DNA from: Arcobacter roscoffensis | Lineage (GTDB): Bacteria; Campylobacterota; Campylobacteria; Campylobacterales; Arcobacteraceae | Assembly (NCBI RefSeq): GCF_024267655.1 | Contig: NZ_CP100595.1 | Span: 2,356,001 to 2,420,000 of the forward strand | DNA length: 64,000 bases | Direction of reading: 5' to 3' | Shown: piece by piece, positions 39,011 to 56,781 of the stretch | Layout of the letters: each line of letters starts with the position of its first letter | Numbering within the stretch: position 1 is the stretch's first letter | Program-made: the position numbers and the translations under genes | The notes under the pieces: model-generated | The model's input: only the letters and a program-made list of their open reading frames with translations | Told to the model about the DNA's origin: nothing | Database searches by the model: none

Positions 39011-41164
39011 TTAGATACTATAGTTTAATATATAGTTGTTTTTGTTAAGTGGAATACTTATTGTAAAACTACATCCTTTATATTTTTTTTCATCAAGAAT
39101 ATATTCACAATTTTTTACATCAATAAGTCCATCAAAGTGTTCTGTAATAATTTGGTGAGACATATATAAACCTATTCCTGTACCTTTTGATTTATGTTTT
39201 GTAGTAAAATAAGGCTCAAATATTTTATCAATAATAGTCTCATTTATTCCCCCTGCACCATCAACTACTTCTATTACAATATCATTATTTATTTTTTTAC
39301 TTTTTATCCATATAGTTCTACTAGCTATATTATTTAATATAAATGCATCTTTTGAATTGTTTATTAAGTTTATTATAACTTGCATAAACTCACTTGGTAC
39401 ACCCTTTAAATATAAATCATCTTTAAAATCAAGTTTTACAATAATATCATTGTTCTTAAGACTAGAACCAAGTAACTTTAAAACCTTGTTTATATATTCA
39501 TTTACATTAAATTCTTCAATCTGTCTATCTTGTTTAAAAAAATTTCTAAAATCATCAATTGTTTTTGATAAATATCTACAATTTTCAATTATATTATCTA
39601 CGCTTTTATTTAATCGTTCATCATTCAAAGAACCTATTTCATTTTCTAATTTAATACCACTAGAACAAGTTGTAATGACACTTAAAGGTTGTCTCCATTG
39701 ATGAGCAATATTACCTATCATTTCTCCCATTGATGCCATTTTTGATTGCTGGAAAAGTAGCCTGTCTTTTTGTTTTACTTCTGTGATATCAATTATTGCA
39801 GTAACTCTAACTGTTTGTCCTAAAAACTTTAATAATTTACCTTGAACAAAAACATTTATTTTTTCACCTGTCAATGTTATAAGTTCCACTTCATAAGGAA
39901 GAGTATCTTTATGTAAATTATTTTTAACTATTTCTCTATACTCCTCAGATACAAATATCATCATATTTTTTCCAATAAAATCACTTTTATCTTTAGCTTT
40001 TAATAAATCTAATGTTACATTATTCACATCAATTATTTCAGAATCTTTAGTTAAAACAATAGATTCCAAAGTTGAATTAAAAAGAGTTTTAAAACTCTCT
40101 AGTGAATCTTCTAAGTAGTCCTCTCTTTTATCAATCTCACTTCTCATCTTATTAAAACTACTTATAAGTTTATTAAACTCCAAATAATCACTTTTTTCCA
40201 TATTAGTGTCATAATTTCCATTTGAAATTTCACTTGTTGTACTTTGAAGTTTATCAAAAACATCAAATATTTTTTTGGAAAATTTTAAAGAGACCACAAC
40301 CGAAATCAATGAAAAAAGTACTATTGATAAAAATGTTAAATAAATGATATTGTTTAAACTTTCCAATACTTTTGTGTAATCATCCCTTACCACAACTTTC
40401 CAGTTTGTTTTATTTATATTTACATATGTTCCATATTGTGTTTTTAAACTTTTAATAGCTTCGAAACTTACTTGTTGGTATGCTTGTACTTTATTTATCA
40501 TACTTTCATATACATCTGAGTAACTCGCATTATACCTTTGAAGAACCATTTCATTTGAATCTGGATTTATAATTATTGTTCCATTTGAATCAAAAACTCT
40601 AATCATATGTGAGTTATCTATATTTTTAAAACGTTTAATAAAATCTGACATATTTGTAAACTTGATAAAAAAAACAAAAACCTTTTCATTATGCATAAAA
40701 CTATAAGAGATTGAAGGTTCTTCATCTACACTAGATAGAAACACACTTGACCAGTAAGTATCATCAGTACTTTTTATTTTTTTAAAATAGTTTTTATTAG
40801 AGTAATCAAAACCTTTATAAACATTTAGATTATGTAAGGCTGCAAAGTTTTCAATTATTCCATTTTTATTTAAGACCAATATACTTGATATACTTCTATC
40901 TATTTGAACTATATTATTTAAACTATATTCATCATTTTTGTATTCTTTTTTTAAATAGTTTGATACCTTAATAATATTATCAATAAAATTGTTTATTTCA
41001 TACTCAACTTGAAGTAATACTTGTTCTTGGTTATGATCAATACTATTTAATCTACTTTTATATAAACTATAAGCAGAAAATGAACCTATTATAATTATAA
41101 TTGAAATACTAAATACTATAAATAATAAAGAGATTTCTTTTTTTAAACTTTTTATTTTTTTCAT
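39011..41164 (-). CDS. Sensor histidine kinase: dCache-HAMP-PAS-HisKA-HATPase
   Basis: A 717-residue inner-membrane kinase. TM1 spans about 12-35, a double-Cache periplasmic domain about 40-268, TM2 about 272-294, HAMP about 295-345 and PAS about 355-465. The phosphoacceptor is His488 in A-H-Q-W-R-Q-P-L. The ATP-binding domain has I-N-N-S-K-D-A, D-G-A-G-G (635-639) and G-T-G-I-G-L-Y-M (from 661). Its start overlaps the stop of the substrate-binding protein gene by 4 bp, which suggests that the binding protein and kinase form one sensing unit. No receiver gene is next to it. Confidence 0.88.
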   Translation of the reverse strand: MKKIKSLKKEISLLFIVFSISIIIIIGSFSAYSLYKSRLNSIDHNQEQVLLQVEYEINNFIDNIIKVSNYLKKEYKNDEYSLNNIVQIDRSISSILVLNKNGIIENFAALHNLNVYKGFDYSNKNYFKKIKSTDDTYWSSVFLSSVDEEPSISYSFMHNEKVFVFFIKFTNMSDFIKRFKNIDNSHMIRVFDSNGTIIINPDSNEMVLQRYNASYSDVYESMINKVQAYQQVSFEAIKSLKTQYGTYVNINKTNWKVVVRDDYTKVLESLNNIIYLTFLSIVLFSLISVVVSLKFSKKIFDVFDKLQSTTSEISNGNYDTNMEKSDYLEFNKLISSFNKMRSEIDKREDYLEDSLESFKTLFNSTLESIVLTKDSEIIDVNNVTLDLLKAKDKSDFIGKNMMIFVSEEYREIVKNNLHKDTLPYEVELITLTGEKINVFVQGKLLKFLGQTVRVTAIIDITEVKQKDRLLFQQSKMASMGEMIGNIAHQWRQPLSVITTCSSGIKLENEIGSLNDERLNKSVDNIIENCRYLSKTIDDFRNFFKQDRQIEEFNVNEYINKVLKLLGSSLKNNDIIVKLDFKDDLYLKGVPSEFMQVIINLINNSKDAFILNNIASRTIWIKSKKINNDIVIEVVDGAGGINETIIDKIFEPYFTTKHKSKGTGIGLYMSHQIITEHFDGLIDVKNCEYILDEKKYKGCSFTISIPLNKNNYILNYSI

Positions 41165-42270
41165 TTTATTTTTATAAACTCACCATTTTCTACTTCAAAA
41201 GTGTAATAAGTTCTAACAACATCACCATATTGATCAAATACAATTTTATCAATCAATCCTTCAAAGTTTTTTTGTTTTAATAAGTTATATTTTATTTGTC
41301 TTTCATCACCTTTTTTCAGCATTTCTATTATGATTTGTGCAAGTTCATATGCTTTTGCAGCATACATAGATGGTTCATGATTGTATTTTTGTTTATAATT
41401 TTTTACAAAGTTTTTGTATTTAGGTTTTTCTGATTTAGGATTAAAATCAATATTAAAAATAACTCCTTCTGAAGATTTTCCTGCATTTTCTAGAAAAGAC
41501 TTTGTCATAGCCCATTCTGCAAGGGCAATTTTTGTAGTTACACCCTTTAATCTTAAAAACTGTATTATTTTTGCTGAATCAACAGAATTTGCACACATTA
41601 AAATCATGTCTGGATTTTTCTTTTTTATATCTAGGACTAAAGTATCTAAACTCTTATTAGTACTTTCCAAACTTATAAGTTTAGTTCCTCCATTGTTTAT
41701 AAAACTTTTTTCAAAATTAATTAGATAATCTTTTGTGTAAGTTATATTATCAGGATCATACAAACCATAAATTTTATTGTAATTATTTTGTATTATATAT
41801 TTTGAGAAAGAATCAAACCTTGAAGGATTATTTGCAACATGGACTCTAAAAAATTGATCATCTATTCCAGTAAATTCATTACTAGCTGATGCTGCTGATA
41901 TCATAAACATATCGGAGTGTTTATTTATAATTGACATTGAAATTTTTGACATTGTACTAGTTACATTACCGATAACTATCTTAATATCATTTTCAATAAA
42001 TTCATTTACAATTTGCTTATTAAGTTCTGGATTTTTTTTATCATCTTTAAATATTATTTCAATATTCTTATTATTAATTTTATAATCTATTTCATCAAAG
42101 GCTAGCAGTACACCATTCATCATAGCATTTCCTAAAACAGAGTATTTAGAGGTTAAAGCCCCTACAAACCCTATTTTAACACTTTCGCTTTCACTTGTTT
42201 TATAAAAGTAATATACTACTAAAATTATAAAAAGGAAAAAAGCTATCATAAATCTTGAGATATTTTGCAT
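41161..42270 (-). CDS. Membrane-tethered type I periplasmic binding protein (LivJ-like)
   Basis: A 369-residue protein of the branched-chain amino-acid binding family (Peripla_BP_6). It begins V-K-I-G-F-V-G-A-L-T-S-K-Y-S-V-L-G after one hydrophobic helix (about 7-23). No lipobox or clear signal-peptidase site follows the helix, so it may stay anchored. No permease or ATPase genes are nearby. It sits between two kinase genes and is coupled by a 4-bp overlap to the dCache kinase, so a sensory rather than transport role is likely. Confidence 0.8.
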   Translation of the reverse strand: MQNISRFMIAFFLFIILVVYYFYKTSESESVKIGFVGALTSKYSVLGNAMMNGVLLAFDEIDYKINNKNIEIIFKDDKKNPELNKQIVNEFIENDIKIVIGNVTSTMSKISMSIINKHSDMFMISAASASNEFTGIDDQFFRVHVANNPSRFDSFSKYIIQNNYNKIYGLYDPDNITYTKDYLINFEKSFINNGGTKLISLESTNKSLDTLVLDIKKKNPDMILMCANSVDSAKIIQFLRLKGVTTKIALAEWAMTKSFLENAGKSSEGVIFNIDFNPKSEKPKYKNFVKNYKQKYNHEPSMYAAKAYELAQIIIEMLKKGDERQIKYNLLKQKNFEGLIDKIVFDQYGDVVRTYYTFEVENGEFIKIK

Positions 42271-42333
42271 ATATAGCCTTTATAGTTTAGAATTCCTTTA
42301 TTATATACTTTTTATGCTGATTATATTCTATAC

Positions 42334-43341
42334 CTATCTTTTGTTATTAAAGGGTAATTCAATTGTAAAAATAGTTTGATTATCAATACTTTTGACATTT
42401 AACTTACCATTCATATTTTTTTCAATAATATTTTTAGACATATAAAGACCAATTCCCGTACCCTTACCTTCAGCTTTAGTTGTAAAATATGGATCAAATA
42501 TCTTTTCTAGGATTTCTTCTGGAATACCACCTGCATTATCCCTTATTTCAATGATAATAGATTTTTCATTTTTATTAATGTTTATATTAATGATTCTATT
42601 TTCAATTTTCTTTTCTTCAAAAGCATCTTTAGAATTATTTAAAATATTTAAGATAGAATGCAAAAATTCATTGGGAAAACCTTCAAACTTTATTTCTTCT
42701 TTAATTTCTTTTACAATCTCAATATTACTCTGATTAAAAGAACCACTAAGCAAAAATAATGACTCATTTACTTTTTTACCTATATCAAACTCTTGTTTTG
42801 TTTTATTAGGTTTAAAAAAGTTTCTAAAATCATCTATAGTTTGTGACATCTCATTTGTTAAAAAGTTTGCCTTTTTTAAGGATTTATCCATAAATTCATC
42901 ATCTAATTCATTCATATAATAAGAGACTTCTATATTTTGAATAACTAAACCAATAGCATTTAATGGTTGTCTCCATTGGTGAGCTATATTACCTATCATT
43001 TCTCCCATAGCTGCTGATCTAGCTTGATTTACTAATAGTGCTTGTTGTTCTTCGTTTTCTTTTATTGCTCTTTTTATTCTATCTTCTAAATTTTTATTTA
43101 ATTGTAATAATTGTTTATTTACTTTATTTGCCTCGATAACTCTTCTAATGGCAAAAACAGTTGATATAAGTCCTGAAATGATAAATAAAAGTAGTATTTC
43201 GTCTAATTCATACTCTTCATGAGTTTCTAAATATTCAATTGTTAATTCAAATGCATCATAAGCAGAAAAAACTAACCATAAAAAAAATATTAAAATAGTA
43301 GAAAAGATAAATTCTTTTTTAGCATTTAAATTATCAATCAT
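42334..43341 (-). CDS. Small membrane sensor histidine kinase
   Basis: A 335-residue kinase with two membrane helices (about 11-30 and 47-66) and almost no periplasmic part between them. A coiled-coil linker (about 70-110) leads to the phosphoacceptor His121 in A-H-Q-W-R-Q-P-L. The ATP-binding domain has L-N-N-S-K-D-A, D-N-A-G-G and G-T-G-I-G-L-Y-M. Lacking a sensor domain, it may sense membrane state or act with its neighbours. It lies 57 nt after the 43399-45516 kinase gene on the same strand. Confidence 0.85.
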
Positions 43342-43398
43342 AATTATTCCTATATAACAAACAAAGTTAACAAATATTATATAGTCATTATACTAAAT

Positions 43399-45516
43399 CT
43401 AAGTAATTTTAAATTCTATTATAACTTCTAATCCATATAGTTTTTTATCATCTACTTCAAATGCATTATTTTTAATTTTTATATTACCCTTCATATGTTT
43501 AGTAATAATATAATGTGCCATATATAAACCAATACCTGCGCCAACTTCTTTTATTTTTGTTGTATAATATGGCTCAAATATTTTTTCAATCTCAGTCTTT
43601 TTTATTCCTAAGCCTGAATCATTTATTTTAATAAAAACTTTTTTATCAACTTTTTTTGTCTCAATTAATATATATTTATCTTTTACTTTTGAGTTTAATA
43701 TAGCATCTTTTGCATTATCTAATAGATTAAAAATTATTTGAGAGAACTCAGTTAAATATCCTTGAACAAAAAGCTCTTTTAATTGATGTTTTTGTATTAG
43801 CTTTATTTCATACTTAAAGAGTAGTGGTTCTATAAAAACTAAAGAAGCATCCAAACTTTTGATTAAATCAAAGTTTTCTTGCCTTTTATTTAATTCAAAA
43901 TATGAAGAGCATCTATCAATTATTGAAGATAGCTCTTTTGTTGTTTTATTTATTTTGTCTAAACCTCGAACTAATTCCTTATCTCCAAGAACATCTAATT
44001 CTTTTTCTAATTTCATTCCAGAGGATAAAACACTAATAGTAGATAATGGTTGTCTCCAATGATGGGCTATGTTTGTTAACATTTGAGCAATTGATGATAA
44101 TTTTGATTGTTCCATTATTATTCTATTTTGTTCTTTTAAATCAGTAATATCTAAAAAAAGTGAAATTCTCAATTTATTATCTTTGAAGTTTATCTCTTGA
44201 TCTTTTGCTAACACATATACAATAGTATTATCTTTTTTCAGTAGTTTAAACTCTTTAGGCTCATCTATATCAATATCATTATTAAAACAATCTTCCAATA
44301 TCTTTTTATATTTATTTGGTATTATTTTAAAAATACTATCACCTTCTAATTCATATTTATTATTAAAGCCTAAAATATTTGCTGCTGCATTATTTACTTT
44401 TATACATTCATTCTTATCATGAATAATAATCCCTTCCATAGTAGAGTCAACTAGGTGTTTAAAGCTATCTAAGTTTTTAGTAAGGGATATTTCCCTTTTA
44501 TTTAACTCTAATCTCATTTTGTCAAAAGATTTAATAAAACTATTTAATTCATAAAAATCTGTATATTGAAGTTTATTTTGATACTCACCATTTGAAATAT
44601 TTTTAAACTGTAGCTTAAATTTATTTAATCTAAAAAAAACTTTTTTCAGATACTTATTAATAAACAACAACATTAATAAAGTAAATACAAATATAATAAC
44701 ACTTAAAGTGAATACCACTTTTAAGATATAACTTTCTAATACATTTATATTTTCTCTAATTAGAAGTTTCCATGAGGTTTTTTCAATTGTAGTATACATT
44801 CCATAGTCAACAGAACCTAAACATATATTTTCAAACTTTTCCAAAACAAACTCATCATTTTTTTCAATTAAATTAGTGAAGTAAGTTTTTGACTTAGAAT
44901 CAAATTTTTCAAGGTTTTGGGTATCTAAGTCATTATTTATAATAAATCTCTTATTTTTATCAAAAAGTCTAAATCTAGAAGTATTATCACTATTTTTAAA
45001 AGTTTTTGTTAACTCTTGAATTTTCTTAAGTGATACTAAAAAAACAACTCGATTTTTATCTAAAGTAAAAGAGTATGCAATTGAAGGTGTTTTTTTAAAA
45101 TTTAAAAATAATAAATCAGACCAAGTGTTTTTTATATTTATTTCATTTTTTGATAAATCATCTAAAAAATTTAAATAGATATCTGTTTTAGAGTATATCT
45201 GCTTAACATTATTATAATTGTCAAATATAATAATTGTTGATATTTCATCGTTAGTGTTTAATATATTTTGAAAAGTTATTTGAAGATTAGTATTATTCTG
45301 TACAAGATAAAGAGATAAATTTTCAATTTTATTTATAAAAGAGTTTATTTGTTCCTTTACATGAATTAAAATCTCTTTTTGAGAATGTTGCATAGACTGA
45401 TGTTTTAAGTTAAAAAAAGAAAAAATAGTTATTGCTAAAATTACGCTTGTAAAAAACAAAGTAAAAATAATCACAACTGATATGATACTCTTTTTCAAAC
45501 TTTTTACTTTAAACAA
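43399..45516 (-). CDS. Sensor histidine kinase, dCache-HAMP-PAS type, with HHWRQPL box
   Basis: A 705-residue paralogue of the 39011-41164 kinase with the same order: TM1 about 12-35, double-Cache about 40-262, TM2 about 265-287, HAMP, PAS about 350-462. The phosphoacceptor is His485, but the box reads A-H-H-W-R-Q-P-L, with the usual Gln replaced by His. The ATP-binding domain has L-D-N-A-K-D-A, N-D-S-G-L-G and a G2 loop G-A-G-I-G-L-Y-M, where the second residue is Ala instead of Thr. It is the first gene of the kinase run. Confidence 0.85.
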   Translation of the reverse strand: MFKVKSLKKSIISVVIIFTLFFTSVILAITIFSFFNLKHQSMQHSQKEILIHVKEQINSFINKIENLSLYLVQNNTNLQITFQNILNTNDEISTIIIFDNYNNVKQIYSKTDIYLNFLDDLSKNEINIKNTWSDLLFLNFKKTPSIAYSFTLDKNRVVFLVSLKKIQELTKTFKNSDNTSRFRLFDKNKRFIINNDLDTQNLEKFDSKSKTYFTNLIEKNDEFVLEKFENICLGSVDYGMYTTIEKTSWKLLIRENINVLESYILKVVFTLSVIIFVFTLLMLLFINKYLKKVFFRLNKFKLQFKNISNGEYQNKLQYTDFYELNSFIKSFDKMRLELNKREISLTKNLDSFKHLVDSTMEGIIIHDKNECIKVNNAAANILGFNNKYELEGDSIFKIIPNKYKKILEDCFNNDIDIDEPKEFKLLKKDNTIVYVLAKDQEINFKDNKLRISLFLDITDLKEQNRIIMEQSKLSSIAQMLTNIAHHWRQPLSTISVLSSGMKLEKELDVLGDKELVRGLDKINKTTKELSSIIDRCSSYFELNKRQENFDLIKSLDASLVFIEPLLFKYEIKLIQKHQLKELFVQGYLTEFSQIIFNLLDNAKDAILNSKVKDKYILIETKKVDKKVFIKINDSGLGIKKTEIEKIFEPYYTTKIKEVGAGIGLYMAHYIITKHMKGNIKIKNNAFEVDDKKLYGLEVIIEFKIT

Positions 45517-46265: not shown

Positions 46266-46580
46266 CTATTTTGAAACTTCTCCTATATGATTTTCTACTG
46301 ATTTAATTTTTTCTTCTAATCTATTTTCATGACCTTGTCTTATATCAAACTTTAAAGTTGCATATACTCTATTACAATTTAGCTCTTCTAATTTTTCATA
46401 ACATCTTTGTACAATTTCTAAGGCTTCTGAGACTTTTGAAGTCTCAATTAAAGTGGCCATAGCTGTTAATTGATAAGGATGTCCAGAGTTTTTAATAATC
46501 TTTACAACCTGAGCAACATATTCACTTTTACTCTCACTTTGATCTGTAGGAAACATACTCATTTCTAATAATACTGACAT
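46266..46580 (-). CDS. MTH1187-family thiamine-binding protein
   Basis: A 104-residue protein of the UPF0045/YqgV family. The start S-V-L-L-E-M-S-M-F-P and the region I-I-K-N-S-G-H-P-Y-Q-L-T-A-M-A-T match. Structures of relatives bind thiamine-like molecules or ions; the cellular role is unclear. Its first nine codons and upstream region are duplicated at 49233-49345, where the island ends. Confidence 0.88.
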   Translation of the reverse strand: MSVLLEMSMFPTDQSESKSEYVAQVVKIIKNSGHPYQLTAMATLIETSKVSEALEIVQRCYEKLEELNCNRVYATLKFDIRQGHENRLEEKIKSVENHIGEVSK

Positions 46581-46664
46581 CTTATAGCCTTTTAAATAAT
46601 TTTGATAGTAATATTAAATTGTAGCACTATTTATTTAAATAATTCTTTTGTTAAAGTATATATT
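46552..46664. repeat. 113-bp direct repeat, left copy
   Basis: Identical over all 113 bases to 49233-49345 (offset 2681). It covers the first nine codons of the thiamine-binding gene and its upstream region. Outside the repeat the two copies diverge at once. Confidence 0.95.
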
Positions 46665-46684: not shown

Positions 46685-47383
46685 TTAAGCTCTTGATAGA
46701 TACCATTTAGACATTTCAATTCTACTATGATTAAGCCCTTCTGATACTTCTCTCAAAGCTTTTTTATAAGCTGTACCTTGTTCAATTTTTTTGTTAAATT
46801 CATTTTTCGCATAGTTATATCGAAGTGAATGAGTTGAATGTTAAGAAGACCGTTCTTTAATATCATTTCTATATGTATTTTGACTTGGTATATTTTCTAC
46901 TATGGATATTTTAGCTTGTAGTTCTTTTGAGATTGGTTTATCATGGTACTTATGATTGCCTTTTCCAACCATTTCAACCACACTACTATTTTTAATATAA
47001 TTTAAAGGATTAGATATAAGCTTTATAGCTTCACTAACTCTAAATCCTAACTCATATTGAATTTGAGATAATACTCCTGATTCAAACCTTTTATCATATA
47101 GATTTTGAATAAAATTTGAAACATTATTTATGGCTCTGTTTGTTTTTACTAACTCTTTTGGGGTTGTGCTTTTAATCTCATTAATCTTAATATTGAAATA
47201 CTCTTTAGATATAGGAGTTGATATATTTACCTCTCTTAATCCTTGTGTTAGAGAATACCACCCTCTTATATAAAGATAAATTTTAAAATTTGCAAGAAAT
47301 ACTCTGATAGATATGATGAACCCAATATTGTCAAAATACTTCTCAGAGCTAGTAAAAATACAAAATTGATATTTTTGAAGCTT
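46685..47383 (-). pseudogene. Broken tyrosine recombinase (integrase) remnant
   Basis: One reading frame runs from about 47383 to 46685 with a single internal stop (TAA at 46841-46843). The sequence keeps the catalytic Arg in E-L-G-F-R-V-S-E-A, the hairpin V-G-K-G-N-H, the H-S-L-R-Y box, L-N-H-S-R-I and a Tyr in M-S-K-W-Y-L near the end. The stop falls just before H-S-T-H-S-L-R-Y; CAA to TAA is the simplest cause. The N-terminal part is missing: stops occur above 47383 and no start is evident. It is probably the former integrase of the island. Confidence 0.85.
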
Positions 47384-47451
47384 TTAATATTAAAGTGTTT
47401 AGAATCGTGGATATTTTAATTTTTGGAAGTAAAAATGAAGTTTAAAGACAC

Positions 47452-47493
47452 AGTCGGTCTCTCTACAATTTTTCAATTATAGAGAGACCGACT
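47452..47493. terminator. 14-bp perfect hairpin after the island operon
   Basis: Arms 47452-47465 and 47480-47493 (core AGTCGGTCTCTCTA) pair perfectly around a 14-nt loop that has its own AATT/AATT pairing. It lies 15 nt after the stop at 47508. It is far more GC-rich than its surroundings and lacks a clear U-run on the minus strand. It is probably a terminator, possibly an element-borne site. Confidence 0.5.
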
Positions 47494-47507
47494 ATAAAGA
47501 ATTTTAA

Positions 47508-48488
47508 TTAAGTAAATATTTTCTCAATTACTTCTTTACCAGAATTTGTTATCCTATAATAACCTCCGTCAACTCTTACTAATCCCAATGCAGATAATTC
47601 ATTAATTCTAACTTCTACTAATGTTTTTGAAAGTTTAAAATTACTATTTATATAATTTTTCAATTTTACTGAAGATAAAAGTGAATCATTAGTAAAGAAA
47701 GTAGCTAAAACTTTTATCTGCTCAATTGTTAAACCATTTATTATAGAATCATTACTTTCATTTGCTTTTTTGAATGCATTGTCAATAATTGGTAATTCTT
47801 TTGTAACAGGCTTAAGCTTAGTTACTTCAGCTTCTAATTCAGAGATTTTAGTTTCTAAGGTATTAATAGTTTTTTGCTTATCATTTATTTCATTATTTCT
47901 ATCTTCAATAACTTTATATGTTTTTTCTAGTTTATCACTCAAGTCTTTTACTTTACTTTCAACTTCACTATTAATTTTTTCTTCAAGTTGAGATTCTTTT
48001 TTGCTAAAGTTCTCTTCTAAAGTCTTTTCTTTTTCACTAAACTGACTAATCAAAATTTTTTCTTTACTTGAATATTCCAATTGAACTTTTTCTATTTTTT
48101 CCATTACTTCTCTATGCTCTAAAGTCAATTTAATATTTTCTTCTCTAATTGTATTTGCTTGTTCTTGAGGTAATGGGGTTTTATCTTGTATTTTCTGCTG
48201 AATCCAATTCATTAAAGCTTTATATCCCAAAGTTACGGCATAAAACAATGCTGTTGCAAGAGGGAAAATGAATACATAGGCTAATGCAAAATATAATGGC
48301 GTTTCATAATTGATTTGTCCCCATGATAACATTTCAATTTTCTTTTCAACAGATAATTTAGGTGCAGCAAAAATAAGAATTAATTTACTATTGAAGTATA
48401 TCCATGAAAAAATATATGCACTTAAGAATGGTGTATATTTAAAATCATATAAACGAGCTTTTATTGAGTCTTTTAAATCTTTTTGCAA
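47508..48488 (-). CDS. Unrecognised two-helix membrane protein with coiled coil and C-terminal winged helix
   Basis: A 326-residue protein with a TTG start at 48488 (AAAGGA upstream, 12 nt after the neighbour's stop). The N-terminus S-I-K-A-R-L-Y-D-F-K-Y-T-P-F leads into TM1 (about 21-42, with I-Y-F-N-S-K-L-I-L-I-F). TM2 is about 64-88. A long Lys/Glu coiled coil fills about 112-227. The end (about 253-325) looks like a winged-helix domain: T-I-E-Q-I-K-V-L, then L-S-A-L-G-L-V-R-V-D-G-G-Y-Y-R-I-T. I know no function for this arrangement. Its place in a small integrated island suggests accessory cargo, perhaps defence, but this is inference. Confidence 0.8.
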   Translation of the reverse strand: MQKDLKDSIKARLYDFKYTPFLSAYIFSWIYFNSKLILIFAAPKLSVEKKIEMLSWGQINYETPLYFALAYVFIFPLATALFYAVTLGYKALMNWIQQKIQDKTPLPQEQANTIREENIKLTLEHREVMEKIEKVQLEYSSKEKILISQFSEKEKTLEENFSKKESQLEEKINSEVESKVKDLSDKLEKTYKVIEDRNNEINDKQKTINTLETKISELEAEVTKLKPVTKELPIIDNAFKKANESNDSIINGLTIEQIKVLATFFTNDSLLSSVKLKNYINSNFKLSKTLVEVRINELSALGLVRVDGGYYRITNSGKEVIEKIFT

Positions 48489-48500
48489 TTATAATTTCCT

Positions 48501-49079
48501 TTAATCAAAATTTATTTTTTTCTTTAATATACTGATTTCATTTTCAATTAACTTAAATAAATCAAGAATTTTGTCTTTATGTTCACCATAAAAGTCTTTT
48601 ACATTTTTTTCTTCTTCACCTGATAAATTAGAATAATCAATCATTCCCTCATAAATTTCATATTTAAATAGTTCCTCATTCTTTTGAAGTGCTAAATTTA
48701 TTTCAGAGAATTTTTTTTCAAGTGTTTCAGAAACATAAAATATATTATCTTTAAAATAATCATTAAGACCATTTATTAGACTAACATTGATTTTATCTTC
48801 TGTAATTTCAGTTATAATGTGTCCTTCATATTCATTGAAATCATGTTCTATAAACCCAATAGTTAAAAGATTTAATTCATGTTTTCTCAATCTATTATGG
48901 AGTTCCATATAAACTTCAATTTTTTTTTGGAATATTTTTTGATAAGTTTCTTGTGTTAGTTTATGATTGTTTTCTAATTTAAGTTTTTCTAAATCATGTT
49001 GATTCTTTTGCCATGTCACTAATAAATTTAGTAAGAAAGTAACTCCCATTCCTACTAATGTAAATATTGCATTTTCCAT
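48501..49079 (-). CDS. Unrecognised membrane-anchored helical protein
   Basis: A 192-residue protein with one N-terminal membrane helix (about 4-23: I-F-T-L-V-G-M-G-V-T-F-L-L-N-L-L). A mainly helical, highly charged cytoplasmic part has heptad-like stretches at about 25-65 and 165-190. The start has AAGGATT upstream. It is the first gene of the island operon, 12 nt before the winged-helix protein gene, so the two are probably made together and may interact through their coiled coils at the membrane. I recognise no family. Confidence 0.75.
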   Translation of the reverse strand: MENAIFTLVGMGVTFLLNLLVTWQKNQHDLEKLKLENNHKLTQETYQKIFQKKIEVYMELHNRLRKHELNLLTIGFIEHDFNEYEGHIITEITEDKINVSLINGLNDYFKDNIFYVSETLEKKFSEINLALQKNEELFKYEIYEGMIDYSNLSGEEEKNVKDFYGEHKDKILDLFKLIENEISILKKKINFD

Positions 49080-49232: not shown

Positions 49233-49345
49233 AACATACTCATTTCTAATAATACTGACATCTTATAGCCTTTTAAATAATTTTGATAGTAATATTAAAT
49301 TGTAGCACTATTTATTTAAATAATTCTTTTGTTAAAGTATATATT
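49233..49345. repeat. 113-bp direct repeat, right copy
   Basis: Identical to 46552-46664. It includes a stub of the thiamine-binding gene: ATG at 49261 on the minus strand, nine matching codons, then unrelated sequence and a stop after 15 codons. The copy also lies within the upstream region of the gene at 49416. Confidence 0.95.
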
Positions 49346-54177: not shown

Positions 54178-56781
54178 CTAATCCAAATTATCATCATATA
54201 ATATTACACTAAATTCAGCACCTTTATATTTTTCATCTTTATACTCAAACCTTTTATTTGATACATCTATAACACCATTCATATACTTTGAAATAATTTG
54301 ATCACACATATATAATCCAATTCCAGTACCTGTTGAATTATGTTTTGTTGTAAAATAAGGTTCAAATATCTTGTCTAATATCTTAGGTTTGATACCACCA
54401 GCATTGTCTCTAATTTTTACAAGTGTTTTATTTTTTCTTTTTTTAATCTCAACAAAAATTACTCTATTTTCAGCTAAATTTAAAACCAAAGCATCTTTTG
54501 CATTATTTAAAATATTTATAAATACTTGAATAAACTCTGTTTCATGTCCTTGTATTACTATATTTTCAAAGCTTCTAATCACAGTAATATTTTCTTGTTC
54601 AAATTTAGAGTTAAGTAAATTTATTGTTTTTTCTAAAGTATCTGCTATATCAAATCTTACTTTTTCATCCTGAGGCTTAAAGAAGTATCTAAAATCATCA
54701 ATTGTATGAGATAAATAATTAGAAGAATTTACAATGCAATCAACCGTATCATAGAAGAATTTATCATCTAAATCGTCAACTTGCTTTTTAACTTTTAAAC
54801 CACTTGCACTTGTACTAATAACAGATAAAGGCTGTCTCCATTGATGTGCAATGTTTTCAAGCATTTCACCCATAGCTGCCATTTTTGATTGCCTTGCAAG
54901 CAATCTATCTTTTTTTAAATTCTCTTCAACTTCTTCTTTTACTCTATGCTCTAAGGTTTCATTTATTCTTTTTAGTTCTTGTGTCTTTTCTTCAACTTTT
55001 TTATTTAATTTTTCATTCATCTTTTTTAATAGATTTTGTCTGTAAAGTAATAAAGCACTTAAAATAAAAATAGCAAAGGTGATTTTAAATAAAAGCGCAT
55101 AATCAAACTCTTTTTCATGTTGTACATAAACCCATTTATTACTTAAAGCTTCTACTTTTTCATCATCAAGACTATTTACAAATTTTGACATTATTTTATA
55201 AAGTTTAACATCACCTTTTTTTACACCAATTCTAATATCAATCTTCTCATCAATTTTTCCTGATATTTTCATATGAGATAAAAAATCTTTTTGAAGTATA
55301 TACCAAGCTTTTCCCATAGCAGTAATTTGACCATAAAGCTCATCTTCATAAACTCTTTCTAAACCATCCTCTAAACTTTTAACTTTCACAAACTCTATAT
55401 TAGGATATTTTGGTTTTAAAATTTCATATAAAGAAAAGCCATCTACAATTCCTATTTTTACATCTTTTAAACTTGATAGATTTTCAATAAAAGGTTTTTC
55501 ATCTTTTGTCATAATTACAGATGGAACATCAACATATGCATTTGTAAAATTCATAAAAGATTTTCTATCTTGAGTTAACTGTGCAGTAGGAATAATATCA
55601 CACTGATTACTTTTAATTAATTCTAAACTATTTTTTAAACTACTTGCTGGAATATAAGTTAAAGGTATTTTTATTTTTTCTTCAAGAATTTTTACAAAAT
55701 CTGCAACTGAACCATATACTTTTCCATCTTTTATATCACTATATGGCATAGCATTTGGAATAATACAAGTTTTAATAAAAGCCTTTTGCTTTAAATACTC
55801 TTTTTCTTTATTTGTTAAAACAAGCTTATTATCTTCAAAATATATAAAATCATCAAAATCAATTACATTATTTGTAAGTCCCATGATATTATATAAATCA
55901 TATATTCTTTGTAATTTCTCTTTTTTTATATGACCTAATTCTTTAGTATTAAAGTAAGACAGTTTCTTAAGCTGTTCACCCTCATAGATAAGCTCAGCTT
56001 TTGAAAGATTTTGAGAATTATACTTTTGTAAGATTAAATCTGCACTTTTTTCAATATTAGAATAGGCATATTCCCATCCTTTTAAAGAGGCATTTTTAAA
56101 AGCTAATGCAGTATCAATATCATTTTGAATCATTTTTTTACTTGTAAAAAGCAAATCACTATACATATCAAATCCAAATTTTTTTGGATCAAATACATTA
56201 TATTCTATACCTCTTTGTTTTAATTCAAAAGGAGATTTTGAAATATATGCTGAAATTACATCTGTTTTTTTATCAATTAAATCATTGATATTATGAGTGT
56301 GTTTTATAAAATCAAGCTCTTCTAATCTTATATTTTTTGATCTTATCATAGCTTTTAGAGAAACTTCACTTGCATCATCTATAGTAGTCATTATATTTTT
56401 ATTTTTAAAATCTTCAATAGAGTTTATACCTGATTCTTTAGTACTTACTAAAATTAAAGGTGTTGCTTGAAAAAGTGCGTACAAGGCTACTATATCTGTA
56501 CCTTTTGACTTATCTAAAATTAAAGTTTCTCGCCCAACAGCAAAATCAAACTTTTGTTTTGCAACATCATTTGGAATATCTAAACCAAACTCAAAAGCTT
56601 TTATAGTTACATCTAATCCTGCTTCTTCATAAAAGCCTTTTTCTTTTGCCATATAATATCCAGCAAATTGGAATTGATCAAACCATGATAGCTGAATAGT
56701 AACTTTTTTTAAATCTTTTGAAAAAAGAAGACTTTGAGAAATTAGAAAAACAAAAATAAAATAGAATATACCTCTAAGCAT
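54178..56781 (-). CDS. Hybrid sensor: two periplasmic binding domains fused to a histidine kinase
   Basis: An 867-residue protein with a signal peptide at about 1-21. Residues 25-300 form an NMT1/THI5-like binding domain (S-W-F-D-Q-F-Q-F-A-G-Y-Y-M-A-K-E-K-G-F). Residues 330-550 form a second, SBP_bac_3-like domain with its own lobes. One membrane helix follows at about 562-580, then a coiled coil and His646 in A-H-Q-W-R-Q-P-L, with D-N-A-G-G and G-T-G-I-G-L-Y-M in the ATP domain. THI5-like domains bind pyrimidines, nitrate or sulfonates and SBP_bac_3 binds amino acids; the actual ligands are unknown. Confidence 0.88.
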   Translation of the reverse strand: MLRGIFYFIFVFLISQSLLFSKDLKKVTIQLSWFDQFQFAGYYMAKEKGFYEEAGLDVTIKAFEFGLDIPNDVAKQKFDFAVGRETLILDKSKGTDIVALYALFQATPLILVSTKESGINSIEDFKNKNIMTTIDDASEVSLKAMIRSKNIRLEELDFIKHTHNINDLIDKKTDVISAYISKSPFELKQRGIEYNVFDPKKFGFDMYSDLLFTSKKMIQNDIDTALAFKNASLKGWEYAYSNIEKSADLILQKYNSQNLSKAELIYEGEQLKKLSYFNTKELGHIKKEKLQRIYDLYNIMGLTNNVIDFDDFIYFEDNKLVLTNKEKEYLKQKAFIKTCIIPNAMPYSDIKDGKVYGSVADFVKILEEKIKIPLTYIPASSLKNSLELIKSNQCDIIPTAQLTQDRKSFMNFTNAYVDVPSVIMTKDEKPFIENLSSLKDVKIGIVDGFSLYEILKPKYPNIEFVKVKSLEDGLERVYEDELYGQITAMGKAWYILQKDFLSHMKISGKIDEKIDIRIGVKKGDVKLYKIMSKFVNSLDDEKVEALSNKWVYVQHEKEFDYALLFKITFAIFILSALLLYRQNLLKKMNEKLNKKVEEKTQELKRINETLEHRVKEEVEENLKKDRLLARQSKMAAMGEMLENIAHQWRQPLSVISTSASGLKVKKQVDDLDDKFFYDTVDCIVNSSNYLSHTIDDFRYFFKPQDEKVRFDIADTLEKTINLLNSKFEQENITVIRSFENIVIQGHETEFIQVFINILNNAKDALVLNLAENRVIFVEIKKRKNKTLVKIRDNAGGIKPKILDKIFEPYFTTKHNSTGTGIGLYMCDQIISKYMNGVIDVSNKRFEYKDEKYKGAEFSVILYDDNLD

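Follow-up and report, generated by a model that had tools for sequence, protein, structure and literature searches.

The 64,000-nucleotide stretch of Arcobacter roscoffensis DNA analysed here (the window; NZ_CP100595.1, positions 2,356,001 to 2,420,000) carries on a small integrated island a two-gene operon, ORF192-ORF326, whose larger product belongs to a membrane protein family that is found in phages and beside immune genes. We hold with moderate confidence that the pair is a membrane-anchored phage-exclusion cassette, abortive or entry-blocking in action, on an integrative element that is now immobile. The features on which this reading is built are listed in Table 1.

Table 1. Features of the ORF192-ORF326 element and its insertion site, numbered from the first nucleotide of the window
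Feature	Position	Strand	Basis or remark
Target gene Thiamine_BP	46266..46580	-	PF01910; gene still intact
Direct repeat, att-like copy 1	46552..46664	.	Repeat comparison; covers first 29 nt of the thiamine-binding-protein gene
Tyrosine integrase remnant	46685..47353	-	N-terminus missing; one in-frame stop near 46841-46843
Intrinsic terminator of the ORF192-ORF326 operon	47451..47494	-	Hairpin scan and fold z-score
ORF326	47508..48488	-	Predicted two-TM hairpin, long coiled-coil helix and C-terminal winged helix; TTG start
ORF326 predicted winged helix, MarR/MotA-like	47514..47726	-	Residues 255-325; AlphaFold2 and Foldseek
ORF326 predicted continuous helix, coiled-coil-like	47757..48167	-	Residues 108-244; AlphaFold2 and heptad test
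ORF326 predicted TM2	48228..48299	-	Residues about 64-87; hydrophobicity and AlphaFold2
ORF326 predicted TM1	48366..48431	-	Residues 20-41; hydrophobicity and AlphaFold2
ORF192	48501..49079	-	Predicted N-terminal TM at residues 4-22, remainder helical; no relative in the collections searched
Direct repeat, att-like copy 2	49233..49345	.	100% identical to copy 1

The preliminary description of this region had proposed a 12-nt spacing of the two genes and an integrated island with no other intact gene, and both statements were borne out. The insertion unit is 2,681 bp long, this being the distance between two flanking 113-bp direct repeats that are identical to one another. Between the first repeat and the operon terminator lies the remnant of a tyrosine integrase, which was assigned by PF00589 and PF12835 with both scores below the curated cut-off. 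The uninserted gene order is kept in six related genomes, where thiBP-orf141 is found in all six, rnhB before it in five and msrA plus msrB after it in four; excision of one 2,681-bp unit in silico leaves ~155 bp between the flanking genes, compared with ~140 bp in the relative L034. The tyrosine integrase, flanking direct repeats and empty site of an integrative element are thus all present. Because the integrase is broken the island is not autonomous now, and the repeats, the broken integrase and the empty sites in relatives together identify ORF192 and ORF326 as its only intact genes. The gap between the flanking genes in genome G327 was considered as a second remnant of such an element and rejected, as it holds a polyphosphate-kinase-like gene. 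Elsewhere in the window, positions 39011-45516 and 54178-56781 contain a run of sensor histidine kinases, some of which are fused to domains like periplasmic binding proteins or lie next to them.

The type of element is a local one: of the 103 other genomes of the family, 11 have intact integrases with 36-44% identity to the fragment. Three of these 11 have the integrase in insertions of ~9 kb in the msrA-msrB interval, and a fourth has an insertion in the 5' end of msrA that is marked by a 31-bp repeat; from these and the thiamine-binding-protein site we conclude that both types of element insert at the 5' ends of conserved genes that are neighbours. The msrA-region elements (L168, L170, L171 and L176) are apparently undescribed. 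They are ~9-10 kb long, lie in the 5' end of msrA or in the msrA-msrB interval and have an integrase of this family; their other genes include those for a replicase/PriCT-1-like protein, for DnaJ-like and HTH proteins and for a 658-aa product that has no Pfam match.

The operon itself is compact: both reading frames are open, and a ribosome-site-like stretch of ORF326, AAAGGAA, overlaps the stop codon of ORF192. GC content declines from the first to the third codon position in both (0.36/0.26/0.15 for ORF326 and 0.39/0.15/0.13 for ORF192), which is the pattern of real genes, and the TTG start of ORF326 is supported by the fact that its homologues begin M-x-K-D-[LI]-K-D-S-I-K-A-R-L-Y-D. The hairpin that ends the operon, read from 47494 to 47451, has 20 pairs by the scan (one such hairpin found where 0.3 was expected) and a fold z of -9.2; the two genes have this terminator in common. 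Matches to sigma-70 promoters were at chance level.

ORF326 has two hydrophobic segments, followed by a predicted helix of ~137 residues and then by a C-terminal domain predicted to be a winged helix. The AlphaFold2 model was made from six sequences and has a mean pLDDT of 73.5, being weak at the N-terminus and reaching 80-90 in the winged helix. A heptad test for coiled coil in the long helix gave P=0.003 when windowed and was not significant when the whole segment was held to a single register. Foldseek matched the C-terminus to MarR proteins (4b8x, E 5e-4) and to T4 MotA (TM-score 0.71 by target), and the same region has weak HTH_45 and Sso10a matches. By positive-inside reasoning both termini are predicted to be cytoplasmic, so the models agree with the earlier proposal that the larger protein ends in a winged helix facing the cytoplasm. 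The domain has a net charge of +3 and its predicted recognition helix is net neutral, and DNA binding by ORF326 is therefore possible but not assured. ORF326 was also considered as a Zorya ZorA, a Lamassu LmuB or an SMC or similar protein, and this was rejected: the PADLOC ZorA/LmuB matches (residues about 90-290, E 1e-5 to 1e-2) span the coiled coil only, and PADLOC identified neither a MotA/ExbB-type motor domain nor an SMC-type ATPase in ORF326.

ORF192 has a single N-terminal hydrophobic segment and is otherwise helical, and its structure model (pLDDT 42) is too poor for a fold search. Both proteins had been thought to be membrane-anchored and rich in coiled coil; the hydrophobic segments are present in both and the long helix in ORF326, but a coiled coil in ORF192 is not well supported. 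Searches for ORF192 relatives (tblastn in phages and plasmids, a scan of IMG/VR, and the class and family genomes) gave only coiled-coil-type noise. No relative was detected in 297 further genomes of the class or 103 of the family, nor in phages, plasmids or IMG/VR, and the exact pair recurs nowhere in the genomes, phages, plasmids and IMG/VR searched.

Are the two genes nevertheless a unit? The arrangement, an N-terminally anchored helical protein followed by a two-TM coiled-coil protein, recurs in two further loci. In G292 the order is a TIR gene, a 186-aa one-TM helical protein and the two-TM coiled-coil protein, with gaps of about 10 nt, and in G448 a 222-aa protein with N-terminal and C-terminal hydrophobic segments overlaps a winged-helix member. 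The genes that precede the coiled-coil member in G292 and G448 have no detectable homology to ORF192: BLAST and hhalign found none between ORF192 and the partner proteins in L062 and L130, and homology is not claimed; it is fair to state that ORF192 and these genes have the same slot and the same general build, with homology unproven. Alternatively, ORF326 may exclude phage by itself, ORF192 being a passenger of the insertion with no connection to it, a reading that we put at somewhat less than an even chance: most ORF326 relatives do stand alone and ORF192 is an orphan, but the 12-nt spacing, the ribosome site over the upstream stop, the common terminator and the similarly anchored helical proteins in the same slot of G292 and G448 argue against it. 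That ORF192 partners functionally with ORF326 has, in our estimate, very nearly an even chance.

Full-length relatives of ORF326, 30-52% identical, were found in a Sulfurimonas MAG (frame-shifted) and in three other Campylobacterota, with full-length identities of 41% to L003, 33% to L130 and 30% to L131. Further relatives are Vibrio L009 (BLAST) and L062 (profile match; L110 and L111 are duplicates of the L062 contig and were not counted as independent). Distant relatives have the first ~90 residues in common with ORF326 and diverge beyond, and it is this homologous N-terminal two-TM module that places them with it in a two-TM coiled-coil family; N33, I51 and P76 are invariant in an alignment of 13 of its sequences. 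No family model in Pfam, NCBIfam or PADLOC (2023 library) covers the module. PHROG 4780 and 13369, which are of unknown function, match ORF326 weakly (E about 1e-4) over a stretch that includes the N-terminal membrane part. The module is a widespread membrane family, uncatalogued and unnamed, that occurs in Campylobacterota, Enterobacteriaceae, Vibrio, Leptospira plasmids and tailed and filamentous phages, and within the class its distribution is patchy: about 11 of 397 genomes have a recognisable ORF326-type copy, others holding fragments or decayed copies.

The winged helix is less widely distributed than the module. It aligns in L130, L131 and L003 and is apparently retained in L009, a Vibrio gene adjoining Mu-like tail genes, but is missing from most enterobacterial phage members. 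Because so many phage members do without it, the winged helix cannot be the family's core function, and since the hairpin and coiled coil are the part kept throughout, the core act should be at the membrane. This bears on the possibility that ORF326 is a membrane-bound transcription regulator or maintenance module, with the winged helix acting on genes of the element itself or on others close by. The MarR/MotA-like fold and the isolation of the unit by a strong terminator would suit such a role; retention of the membrane and coiled-coil part by phage members that mostly have no winged helix does not, no regulated neighbour or conserved operator was seen, and the domain order differs from that of ToxR and CadC. 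We consider a regulator improbable.

The positions of the relatives make an anti-phage or exclusion role the preferred reading. The IMG/VR phage set was obtained with the KO-TP1 protein as query (scans of IMG/VR with ORF326, L009, L064 and L131 as queries yielded no usable set, nor did scans based on alignments), and in its enterobacterial phage loci, about 45 in number, the relative is a lone gene that is antisense to both neighbours in 36 of 45 and whose usual position is next to the terminase gene or else in the interval from lambdoid P to ninB. Two Vibrio filamentous phages have a relative in the accessory region, and two others have relatives of the G292 partner protein in the same kind of position. 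Relatives also occur on phage-plasmids, and plasmid copies adjoin TA, Shedu or RM genes; on a Vibrio aerogenes plasmid the relative lies 20 nt after a DUF262-HNH (GmrSD-like) gene, which itself follows a type I S subunit. In G237 the relative follows HsdS and precedes SMEK/MC6/DUF2326 genes (type I RM plus ABC-3C), in G416 it overlaps the KAP NTPase gene immediately upstream (PADLOC PDC-S20, like the exclusion protein PifA) and precedes HsdR, and in G292, inside a Mu-like prophage, its operon also includes, two genes upstream, a TIR gene of the CAP12-PCTIR type (PDC-S35). These are associations and not homologies, and the window's island, by contrast, has no NTPase or TIR gene. An RM, TIR, KAP or ABC-3C gene is present in 3 of 10 ORF326-type loci and in none of 20 control stretches of 8 kb, taken arbitrarily from this class, which gave only broad ATPase/GTPase-type PADLOC matches (one-sided Fisher P = 0.03, with a small control set and with "dedicated defence gene" being our own reading of PADLOC names). 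Four of the 10 Campylobacterota loci (G282, G339, G366 and G419) have a lone gene and no dedicated defence neighbours, and the L064 and L130 loci lie in surface-polysaccharide clusters.

Several of these loci are of interest in their own right. L131:5988-11403 (G416) has the PifA-like KAP NTPase and the ORF326 relative inserted just before a type I HsdR, and the TIR, one-TM and two-TM genes at L062:7712-10139 (G292) make a candidate multi-gene TIR system. In the Vibrio filamentous phages L022, L023 and L112 the same accessory region is occupied either by a two-TM coiled-coil gene or by one whose product is related to the one-TM protein of G292. The members within surface-polysaccharide clusters (L064:8405-10743 and L130:7502-9141) have the winged helix, and a DUF4062/RecG-C-type ATPase gene follows the former. 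Lone relatives at L133:7197-8087 and L134:7198-8064, from two genera, are positioned alike, each behind nrdAB-like genes, which reflects either a shared insertion spot or old inheritance.

The presence of relatives among phage accessory genes and in immune loci, and the speed with which they are gained and lost, suggest that other phages are being excluded, and we give an anti-phage or exclusion role about an even chance. The preliminary description had suggested an anti-phage membrane effector with a sensor and had looked to homologues for co-occurrence in variable loci. For ORF326 this was found, in phages, phage-plasmids and type I RM, TIR, KAP and ABC-3C loci, rather than single genes scattered with no link to islands; for ORF192 it was not, and only the arrangement recurs. 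The plasmid and phage-plasmid copies could also be taken to mean that ORF326, with its membrane anchor, long arm and DNA-binding-like tip, tethers DNA of the element or of the chromosome to the membrane as an aid to segregation or replication, but in temperate phages it is a single antisense gene that no partition gene adjoins, and the plasmid copies neighbour TA, Shedu or RM genes, and we think a tether very improbable.

How might an exclusion cassette of this build act? The two-helix hairpin would anchor ORF326 in the inner membrane and the long helix would hold the winged helix deep in the cytoplasm, where it might bind the DNA of an infecting phage or a phage protein-DNA complex; a signal would then travel along the helix to the hairpin, which, with ORF192, would alter the membrane so that infection stops. 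The winged helix of the ORF326 subtype suggests sensing of DNA or of a DNA-bound phage protein, but that DNA itself is the ligand is a tentative proposal, and membrane damage as the output is a slightly more doubtful one. The logic is like that of the RexAB-type systems (lambda RexA/RexB and prophage relatives), for which sensing followed by a membrane effect has been proposed, and which are likewise two-gene cassettes of integrated elements with one DNA-binding-like partner and at least one partner in the membrane (PMC12894663). Here, however, each of the two proteins has a predicted membrane anchor, and the DNA-binding-like domain is part of the membrane protein ORF326 itself. PADLOC and Pfam gave no Rex homology for either ORF; there is no RexB-like multi-TM ion-channel protein (no PADLOC, Pfam or PHROG match, with one TM in ORF192 and two in ORF326) and no soluble RexA-like DNA-binding sensor (no RexA match in PADLOC).

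The main mechanistic rival is an entry block like that of SNIPE without cleavage, in which ORF326 at the inner membrane would disturb the incoming genome during injection, ORF192 would be accessory or irrelevant and the cell would survive. SNIPE is a membrane-bound DUF4041/GIY-YIG nuclease that acts at injection, and its N-terminal inner-membrane anchor, elongated cytoplasmic part and DNA-binding module resemble the anchor, long cytoplasmic arm and DNA-binding-like domain of ORF326 (PMC13190303). The frequency of the family in temperate phages, where superinfection exclusion is selected, fits an entry block as well. On the other hand, ORF326 has two TM helices and a winged-helix tip but neither DUF4041 nor GIY-YIG (no Pfam matches) nor any other nuclease domain, many phage relatives have no winged helix, and a link with injection or receptor genes was not seen; we consider an entry block of this kind unlikely. 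As RexB, RexA, DUF4041 and GIY-YIG are all absent, the pair at most works like RexAB or SNIPE and is neither.

Returning to the family as a whole, it may, as a speculative proposal, be an exchangeable membrane module of anti-phage immunity, which phages would use by itself for exclusion and which elsewhere would work with TIR, KAP-NTPase, restriction or small membrane partners. The winged-helix subtype would then be a sensor, tethered to the membrane, that searches the cytoplasm for phage DNA to a distance of about 20 nm. If so, phage detection at the inner membrane, for which few designs are known, would gain another: a DNA-binding-like tip at the end of a long arm with a membrane anchor. Its members adjoin several unrelated immune systems, and the family can be tested through the single genes that enterobacterial phages already carry; should it prove protective, current annotation would be overlooking a common component of immunity.
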